DNA of 35,659 nt, taken from NCBI GenBank assembly GCA_028683655.1, contig JAQUHK010000007.1, positions 1 through 35,659 on the forward strand, given 5' to 3'. Positions 759 to 30,380 of the stretch are shown here, in pieces; the first letter of the stretch is position 1, and each line of letters begins with the position of its first letter. The translations under genes were made by a program, and so were the position numbers. The DNA comes from Alphaproteobacteria bacterium. GTDB lineage: Bacteria; Pseudomonadota; Alphaproteobacteria; UBA9219. The notes under the pieces were generated by a model. It worked only from the letters and a program-made list of their open reading frames with translations. It searched no databases and was not told where the DNA came from.

Positions 759-860
759 CGTCATCGCGAAGCCCCGAAGGGGCTGTGGCGATCCAGTCCC
801 CAAGTTTCAAGTAGCAGGACTGGATCACCACGTCGCGCTATCGCGCTCCTCGTGATGACG
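759..860 (-). repeat. Palindromic repeat family A, copy A1
   Basis: This is a 102-bp imperfect palindrome that begins CGTCATCGCGA and ends CGTGATGACG. The asymmetric centre (CAGTCCCCAAGTTTC...GCAGGACTGG) is the reverse complement of the centre of copies A2 and A4, so A1 is inverted relative to them. It lies between der and the 3' end of the YceI gene. No outer terminal repeats like those of A2/A4 are visible. Repeats with a CGTCATTGCGAG...CAATCCAG core are known to be widespread in proteobacterial genomes. Confidence 0.85.
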
Positions 861-894
861 TGTGGGGTAGTTCACTTACGAGATGCTGTATGTC

Positions 895-1479
895 TCATTG
901 CCTCATGGCTTGCGCTTCGAGAAGCAGCGTTACGGCCTCGCCAAAGCGGCTGGGGATTTCGGGCTCGTCCGCCATGCCGAAGTCAGAGCGGTTGAAGCTG
1001 CCCTTAAGCGACAGCCCCATCACGCTTTCCTCATCATCGCCTTTGCCGACATTGTTGAGGGTGCCTTCAAACGTAGCGGCCTTGCTTTGGCCGTGAACGC
1101 GCAGCGTGCCCTTAATCTGAGCCTTGCCGCCGTCGAACTTGGCCGGAGCCGACGCGATGAACGAAATCTCGCCATAGCGACGCGTCTCAAGCAGCTTGGA
1201 GAATTCATAAAGAGCCGATTGGTTCGGCCCCAAGATCATCGAGGTATCGACGGCGATTTTGATTTGGCTGATCGTAGATGTCTGCGGATCGAACGCAAAG
1301 GCTCCGGTTGCATTTTGGAACATGCCGAGCAAGTTGGTATAGCCTTGGTCCATGACTTGGAAAGCGGCACTAAGCTGTCCCGTGGGGACATAGTATTTCG
1401 CCTCTTTCGCTTGGGCGGGAGTCCACAACATCCCGAAGGCGAGAACCAGTAATACCAACGGCCTAATGAAGTGCCTCAT
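895..1479 (-). CDS. YceI-family exported protein
   Basis: This 194-aa protein belongs to the YceI family, periplasmic lipocalin-like barrels that bind polyisoprenoids or similar lipids. After a signal peptide (basic MRHFIRP, hydrophobic LLVLAFG, cleavage near PAQA-KE) comes the family pattern: a YYVPTG start, a FQVMDQGYTNLLGMF segment matching the usual 'F.v.H.g.s.v.G.F' region, and a late IKGTLRVHG strand. Length matches the family. I chose the ATG at 1477-1479 because it gives a clean signal peptide; longer versions only translate repeat DNA. No good Shine-Dalgarno is visible. The start codon and first nine codons lie within repeat A2, and A1 sits 34 bp past the stop. Physiological role unknown. 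Confidence 0.8.
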   Translation of the reverse strand: MRHFIRPLVLLVLAFGMLWTPAQAKEAKYYVPTGQLSAAFQVMDQGYTNLLGMFQNATGAFAFDPQTSTISQIKIAVDTSMILGPNQSALYEFSKLLETRRYGEISFIASAPAKFDGGKAQIKGTLRVHGQSKAATFEGTLNNVGKGDDEESVMGLSLKGSFNRSDFGMADEPEIPSRFGEAVTLLLEAQAMRQ

Positions 1480-1621
1480 GAGTCGCGCCGTCTTCGTCAT
1501 TGCGAGCGACCGCAGGGAGCGTGGCAATCCAGTCCTGCTGCTGGAAACTTGGGGACTGGATCGCCACGTCGCTGCGCTCCTCGCGATGACGAAGCGGGTA
1601 TTTTCATCGGGCCGTTGGTAT
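1452..1621 (+). repeat. MITE-like unit containing family A copy A2
   Basis: The core palindrome is 1495-1591 (CGTCATTGCGAG ... CGCGATGACG). It is embedded in a longer unit shared with copy A4. Outer inverted repeats are ATACCAACGGCC near 1452-1463 and its reverse complement ending near 1621, with ATGAA/TTCAT completing the arms. Sequence between arm and core (GAGTCGCGCCGTCTT) is also shared with A4. No ORF resembling a transposase is inside, so if mobile it is non-autonomous. It contains the start of the YceI gene. Confidence 0.8.
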
Positions 1622-1673: not shown

Positions 1674-2006
1674 TTATTGCCAATAGCCCGGAATGAAGGC
1701 CCAGCCAAAAGCGCGTTGTTCCCAGCGGTCGGGTGTCCACATGGCTGTGGGATCGGGGCGTGTGATATGGTGGCCTTCAACCCATGTGAATTGCTTGCCA
1801 TCATAATCCCAATACCCCTTGCGCCAAACTTCTTGCATCGGGTTGTCGGAAGTCAGTTTTTCTTCATACGGCGACACGGGGGGCGGTGAGGGCGAAAGGC
1901 GGATATAGGAAACGACCTGCCCCTCGTCACGAGGTGTCCCCGCGCAGGCGGCAAGGCCGATCACGGCAAGGACTAAACACGCATAACGATTCAGCAGGTT
2001 TTTCAT
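1674..2006 (-). CDS. Small YXWGXW/WXXGXW-type lipoprotein
   Basis: This is a 110-aa predicted lipoprotein. It starts MKNLLNRYACLVLAVIGLAAC with a lipobox LAAC, so Cys21 would be lipidated. The body is rich in Trp and Tyr, with repeats of the kind VWRKGYWDYDG, FTWVEGHH, RWEQRAFGWAF and IPGYWQ at the C-terminus, characteristic of YXWGXW-repeat proteins. The ATG at 2004-2006 has an upstream GGAG at good spacing, so the start is well supported; an in-frame TTG further upstream is less likely. It probably sits in the inner or outer membrane facing the periplasm. Function of this family is not known. It is isolated between repeats A2 and B1. Confidence 0.75.
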   Translation of the reverse strand: MKNLLNRYACLVLAVIGLAACAGTPRDEGQVVSYIRLSPSPPPVSPYEEKLTSDNPMQEVWRKGYWDYDGKQFTWVEGHHITRPDPTAMWTPDRWEQRAFGWAFIPGYWQ

Positions 2007-14871: not shown

Positions 14872-14890
14872 CCCGACCCAATCCCCCACT

Positions 14891-14978
14891 TGAGTCATCC
14901 CCGCGAAAGCGGGGATTCATGACTGTCGAAGTTTTCCTTGCGTTGAAGATGGTTTCCCGCTTTCGCGGGGATGACTCA
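14891..14978. repeat. Palindromic repeat family B, copy B2
   Basis: Two perfect 23-bp inverted arms (14891-14913 and 14956-14978) begin TGAGTCATCCCCGCG and enclose a spacer of about 42 bp. The arms share the CCCGCGAAAGCGGG core with copy B1; the spacers differ. It lies downstream of scpB and could form a strong cruciform or RNA hairpin. Confidence 0.85.
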
Positions 14979-15031
14979 GGTAGGAGAGGAGCGTGAAGCT
15001 CGCTCACCTTTCTCTCCGAGAAAACCTTCCC

Positions 15032-16731: not shown

Positions 16732-16831
16732 GTCATTGCGAACCAAGCTTGCTTGGCGTGGCAATCCAGCCCCCAAGTCGCTGGGTGCAGGACTGGATTG
16801 CTTCGTCGGCCAAGGCCTCCTCGCAATGACG
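16732..16831 (-). repeat. Palindromic repeat family A, copy A3
   Basis: This ~100-bp palindrome runs from GGTCATTGCGAA to CTCGCAATGACG. Its asymmetric centre (CCAGCCCCCAAG ... GCAGGACTGG) has the same orientation as A1 and is inverted relative to A2/A4. It is the most diverged copy. It occupies most of the hflC-degP gap. Frames read across it are only repeat DNA. Confidence 0.8.
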
Positions 16832-16864
16832 AAGGAATGGATGTATCGCGCATGACGACCAGAT

Positions 16865-30204: not shown

Positions 30205-30380
30205 ATTATACGAACGGCCCGATGAAATGACTCACGAGTCGCGCCGTCTTCGTCATTGCGAGCGACCGCAGGGAGCGCGGCAATCCAGTCCTCCTGCTTG
30301 GAAACTTGGGGACTGGATCGCCACGTCGCTGTGCTCCTCGCGATGACGTAGCGGGTGTTTTCATCGGGCCGTTGACATTA
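30205..30380 (+). repeat. MITE-like unit containing family A copy A4
   Basis: The core palindrome is 30251-30348. Outer terminal inverted repeats are AACGGCCCGATGAAA (30213-30227) and its exact reverse complement (30359-30373); weaker matches extend to about 30205 and 30380. Arms, flanks and core match unit A2 closely, in the same orientation. It follows the second purC and precedes a terminator. No protein is encoded. Confidence 0.85.

Follow-up and report, generated by a model that had tools for sequence, protein, structure and literature searches.

The candidate start codon of a conserved gene for an exported YceI-domain protein lies inside a repeat, which raises the question of whether an insertion rebuilt the start of the gene or the gene moved together with the repeats. 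The window, meaning the whole stretch of DNA analyzed, comprised the 35,659 nucleotides of contig C92 in genome G000 (2.28 Mb in 207 contigs). Its yceI gene occupied an ORF at 895–1653 on the minus strand whose product matched the PF04264 profile (E 1.9e-15; 58 bits versus a gathering cut-off of 23.7), and the part probably translated now is 895–1479, with the stop codon at 895–897. The gene for a WXXGXW-repeat protein (1674–1997, minus strand) lay upstream, and der/engA, with its stop at 722, was the convergent neighbor downstream. Further upstream, a copy (2078–2201) of a different palindromic repeat (core TCATCCCCGCGAAAGCGGGGAT) was located between the WXXGXW gene and a purC-like gene; the second copy of this repeat was at 14882–14987.

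The insertion in the yceI signal peptide

A 168-bp miniature inverted-repeat element, A2, lay in the signal-peptide codons of yceI (1453–1620, minus strand), and both of its ends read TACCAACGGCCYRATGAA in inverted orientation. The 18-bp terminal inverted repeat on the yceI side (1453–1470, plus strand) contained one mismatch and encoded FIRPLV in the outward direction, and that of the far end (1603–1620, minus strand) matched the consensus without mismatches. The two copies of a TAA target-site duplication flanked the element at 1450–1452 and 1621–1623, the former being a TTA leucine codon on the coding strand. These features confirmed A2 as the MITE-like unit that the sequence-only reading had proposed, complete and with TAA on both sides. 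That reading had also placed all codons for MRHFIRPLV in the terminal repeat; those for F-I-R-P-L-V fell within the 18 bp, whereas those for M-R-H were located just inside it.

The interior of the element contained a 99-bp palindromic core (1494–1592) common to core-only copies of the family, and its RNA was predicted to fold with a z-score of -9.2. One such core-only copy, A1 (759–860), lay between the ends of the convergent der/engA and yceI genes; over 102 bp it shared 69.6% identity with the A2 core, and it had no terminal repeats. The two were inverted repeats bracketing yceI, as previously noted, with a common palindromic core whose 48-nt arms (785–832 and 1520–1567) were 92% complementary. 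Scanning for terminators and promoters returned nothing at A1 or A2. The same repeat end had been reported at A4 in the company of no gene, and a paired-end copy was indeed present there (30208–30377, minus strand); no gene begins in it because the TAA duplication places a stop in its outward frame. Another partial core copy was observed in the window at 16757–16839.

On the coding strand, the order was ...CGCGCT TTA, the element, and TTA CTGGTT..., and the insertion point was therefore a TTA leucine codon within the signal peptide. In the yceI frame, the 56 codons of the element contained no stop; with one duplication the element amounted to 171 nt, or 57 codons, so that the frame was kept. 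Removal of the element and one TTA yielded an empty site with one open frame, MCTGRLLKRALLVLAFGMLWTPAQA, which in full from ATG 1653 read MCTGRLLKRALLVLAFGMLWTPAQAKEAKYY and whose N-terminus looks like an ordinary signal peptide. The empty-site frame identified the ancestral start codon (MCTGRLLKRA...) at 1651–1653 on the minus strand, 20 nt past the stop of the upstream gene.

In four relatives, yceI directly followed the same WXXGXW gene (L042 in G003, L043 in G002, L045 in G008, and L047 in G011), and its signal peptide was uninterrupted, of other sequence, and without an element at the start. The N-termini were MRKIIACLLTGLLLTLSFARPSQA (L042), MKTKLFILVLLGIMLTGPAKA (L043), and MRRLLCLLLALTLFPAGLHA (L045). 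No MRHFIRP-type start was found among the 20 YceI loci compared, a number that includes the window's own copy (L041) and L137, which represents the same place as L042. Likewise, no element was found at the gene start in nine YceI loci and L137 or in 17 M16 protease loci scanned; elsewhere, the scan gave a weak match in L050 and isolated 4-mismatch matches in four M16 loci. In L042/L137 of G003, a partial family copy began at L042 position 2060, approximately 26 nt past the yceI stop codon, so that two species of the genus have repeats adjoining yceI, each at its own position.

These element-free syntenic orthologues with unrelated N-termini indicated that the repeats had not carried yceI along. 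A single mobile unit of gene and repeats that moved together might be suspected from the inverted repeat cores on both sides, but it is extremely improbable given this synteny and a 3-bp duplication that brackets the 168-bp element alone; moreover, since A1 has none of the terminal repeats of A2, the pair cannot be two ends of one unit. A composite transposon or other gene mobility was rejected on the grounds of synteny and the absence of terminal repeats from A1. An assembly chimera, in which two contig ends were joined via a repeat copy, is conceivable in a genome so fragmented and so rich in this repeat; it is nonetheless highly improbable, as the duplications at both flanks match, the copy has its own substitutions, synteny is conserved across the element, and the empty-site frame is uninterrupted. 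An insertion that rebuilt the yceI start, the other possibility raised by the sequence-only reading, was supported by the duplication, the clean empty-site frame, and the uninterrupted, different signal peptides of the orthologues.

The repeat family in related genomes

The terminal repeat was far more abundant in the genome than expected by chance, with 64 matches at up to 3 mismatches in 2.28 Mb versus one for a reversed control pattern. We examined 26 paired-end copies (96–241 bp) after excluding loose pairings longer than 250 bp (7 of 33), and these were short, multicopy, and without a transposase. The 3-bp flanks were identical in 20 of the 26 copies (12 TAA, 7 TTA, and 1 TGA), as well as in 25 of 42 pairs from related genomes (14 TAA, 9 TTA, and 2 TGA). 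The latter were the pairs of 80–460 bp among 43 candidates in G003, G004, and G005, which came from 60 stretches (part of the copies) in a search that admitted loose matches and pairs as long as 1.8 kb. Identity never extended over 4 bp of flank (0/26 and 0/42), and the target duplication is therefore 3 bp, mostly TWA. With its terminal repeats, fixed-length duplication, and short, multicopy occurrence, the element fits a non-autonomous MITE.

Among the matches listed, many family copies were found in the same-genus genomes G003, G004, and G005, and no terminal-repeat copy was found at 2 mismatches in G001 or G002. The 99-bp core also occurred without the terminal ends. Searches for an autonomous partner gave no match to PF13340 (IS5-type) in four genomes and a PF01609 match in one of the four, a fragment in G003 that adjoined an element and was not within one; we take this fragment to be ISAs1-like. 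A distant blastn search for the element in plasmids gave no match, and viral contigs contained no exact match to the terminal repeat.

Candidate element-borne starts in yceI and copies in other genes

The strongest candidate for the yceI start now in use was the element ATG at 1477–1479 (minus strand), 27 nt from the element end, which gives MRHFIRPLV followed by LLVLAFGMLWTPAQA. Read outward, the yceI-side end was MTKTARLMRHFIRPLV and continued via the duplicated TTA into LLVLAFGM. This frame provides yceI with charge, a hydrophobic core, and an AXA site at normal spacing. A hydropathy count placed the start of the core at residue 8 when numbered from the element ATG; in the empty site it was at residue 10, and numbering from the old ATG of the filled gene moved it to residue 66. 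A second in-frame element ATG (1498–1500, minus strand; MTKTARLMRHF...) was buried in the predicted core stem. For ATG 1477–1479, the predicted fold left A and U unpaired (P 1.0 and 1.0) and G mostly paired (0.29). No clear Shine–Dalgarno sequence was detected ahead of this ATG; by the same test, 7 of 30 long ORFs in the window, spurious ones included, had one. Translation of yceI now most likely starts at ATG 1477–1479, and we infer that export was kept after the insertion.

The codon at this place was ATG solely in the yceI copy, GTG in 16, and GCG in 2 of the 19 copies (from 26) that had an alignable coding end and on which divergence from the consensus was computed. In the relatives, ATG occurred there in 21 of 84 ends; since it is frequent among them, the yceI ATG need not be an adaptation, and we do not claim selection. 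Private divergence of the yceI copy was 4/168 sites (2.4%), a level at which 66% of neutrally simulated frames remained stop-free, and its open frame therefore says little about selection. An intact frame this uninformative would also suit a young pseudogene, whose signal peptide was destroyed by the insertion and whose element ATG is there by coincidence. We consider such decay quite improbable, because the YceI domain is intact, the element frame restores the charge, core, and cleavage site described above, and a parallel case in an M16 protease gene is older yet intact.

The M16 protease gene (PF00675 and PF05193; contig C11, L079/L160) had its signal peptide split by a 203-bp copy at L079 1316–1518, with a TAA/TAA duplication and the split at TTA. 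The empty site read MLSLPRLASFCAVFLSLSGVPAQA followed by AVFHPE, and relatives were similar, e.g., MKKTLGVLCVWAALSSPTTAHA followed by AVFYPE; the filled site read (MTKEGQL)VRHYIGSLVLASFCAVFLSLSGVPAQA, and the N-termini of 17 related M16 loci (L168–L184) differed. Translation from the old start is thrown out of frame by the element, and in the protease frame the element has a stop upstream of its own starts, so that the full signal peptide would be kept solely from element-encoded starts. Candidates were an ATG at 48 and a GTG at 27 nt from the element end, the GTG being preceded by AAGGAGG and mostly paired in the predicted fold. A TTG at 75 gave another open frame, and starting at a GTG located 18 nt outside the element would retain a mere stub. 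The use of an element-borne start thus appears more strongly indicated for M16 than for yceI.

The M16 copy differed from the consensus at 30 of 168 sites, 12 of them private, and, judged by its sequence, it is old and older than the yceI case. In neutral simulations with a simple substitution model, 7.5% of M16 frames stayed stop-free at 7.1% divergence (12/168) and 0.25% at 17.9% (30/168). As few neutral frames survive, the M16 gene was probably under selection after the insertion.

A GT87 membrane glycosyltransferase gene (contig C194, L018) carried two diverged, stop-free, in-frame copies in one ORF; the first inserted stretch was absent from four homologues, and the second fell where the alignment was poor. 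In-frame copies of the element are thus tolerated, which is also the case for Rickettsia palindromic elements. With the outward-frame protein as a query against 24 family genomes, we found 30 places in G000, and three open frames of >200 residues held it, namely yceI (254), M16 (507), and GT87 (597). In G005, the query occurred in one such frame (438 residues, L144), where a core-only copy lay in frame near the C-terminus; by eye, this ORF resembled a repeat-rich fiber protein. No further conserved gene with a rebuilt signal peptide was found among the 43 candidate pairs of G003, G004, and G005 (part of the copies).

The GT87 copies bear on whether yceI is read through from the old ATG 1653, as published Rickettsia elements are, with YceI not exported normally or exported via an internal hydrophobic segment. 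With the whole element in frame (168 + 3 = 171 nt, without a stop), initiation at the old ATG could yield a product of 252 aa. However, 65 residues would precede the hydrophobic core, making export from ATG 1653 unlikely, and read-through fails for M16, in which reading from the old start leaves the frame and the element, in its upstream part, has an in-frame stop. We therefore regard read-through as unlikely.

Our preferred explanation, which we hold with good confidence, is that insertion of the element in the yceI signal peptide supplied a replacement start and the beginning of the signal, with a parallel in M16. A non-autonomous element with 18-bp terminal repeats and a 3-bp TWA duplication would have transposed into the yceI TTA leucine codon, at a point after the charged n-region and before the hydrophobic core. 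Its yceI-side end would read outward as M-x(6)-V/M-R/S-H-F-I-x-P-L-V and, through the duplicated TTA as leucine, into the host frame; the broken gene would thereby have gained a replacement start along with a short n-region bearing charge and the opening residues of a hydrophobic core. The old ATG 1653 would remain as an upstream start, from which the product would have a 57-residue insert before the core. The M16 gene, whose old start no longer matches the frame, probably followed the same route independently.

More tentatively, the family as a whole could act as a portable signal-peptide start, one that has given at least two exported proteins of this genome a new N-terminus. Because the outward reading of the element end, in the frame set by the TTA target codon, supplies a start followed by a basic n-region and the beginning of a hydrophobic stretch, insertions into signal-peptide leucine codons might be tolerated or even useful; one element sub-type also has AAGGAGG ahead of the GTG.

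Comparison with known systems

Rickettsia palindromic elements are described as in-frame inserts within proteins (Ogata et al., 2000, 2002, as summarized in PMC10969869 and PMC2229807). As far as the consulted descriptions of these elements allow a likeness, the family here is similarly short, palindromic, multicopy, and stop-free in one frame, with in-frame copies in conserved alphaproteobacterial genes; stop-free in-frame insertion into conserved genes was found in yceI and, with two copies, in GT87. Unlike in those descriptions, the element end here replaces a start codon and the front of a signal peptide, and the TWA duplication is clear, whereas Delihas's table has a question mark for the Rickettsia elements (PMC2229807).

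Another precedent is the 168-bp Yersinia repeat RU-2/YPAL, which forms residues 1–30 of the exported YPO1552, a protein whose relatives have unrelated signal sequences (Delihas, 2007; PMC2759123). According to the relevant parts of PMC2759123 and PMC2229807, it is likewise a 168-bp MITE with a 56-residue frame forming the start of an exported protein, and a repeat that forms part of a signal peptide is therefore not new. However, RU-2 is a different repeat, in enterobacteria, and the description in PMC2229807 gives it termini without TA. In sections 15–16 of PMC2759123, neither a target duplication nor an ancestral signal peptide was reconstructed for RU-2, whereas in the present case one can still read the codon that was split, the target duplication, and the former signal peptide, and the event occurred twice in one genome. 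For MITEAba12 of Acinetobacter, the pertinent part of PMC6382973 stated that start codons near the termini could fuse to neighboring genes; fusion was given there just as a possibility, and none of its six frames is free of stops, unlike in the element described here.

Within the portions of the MITE literature compared (PMC10969869, PMC2229807, PMC2759123, and PMC6382973), the present family was not described. Start-site annotation beside such repeats may be wrong, and it can now be tested how often the end of a repeat provides a gene with its translation start and targeting signal. Within the portions of the literature searched, the novelty lies in the precise identification of the former start and of the target codon, in a duplication that can still be read, and in a pair of parallel cases. 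Together, they offer a step-by-step readable account of how a mobile repeat may become the start of conserved exported proteins, twice in parallel in one genome; the former start, the proposed new start, and both copies of the target codon are all still in place.
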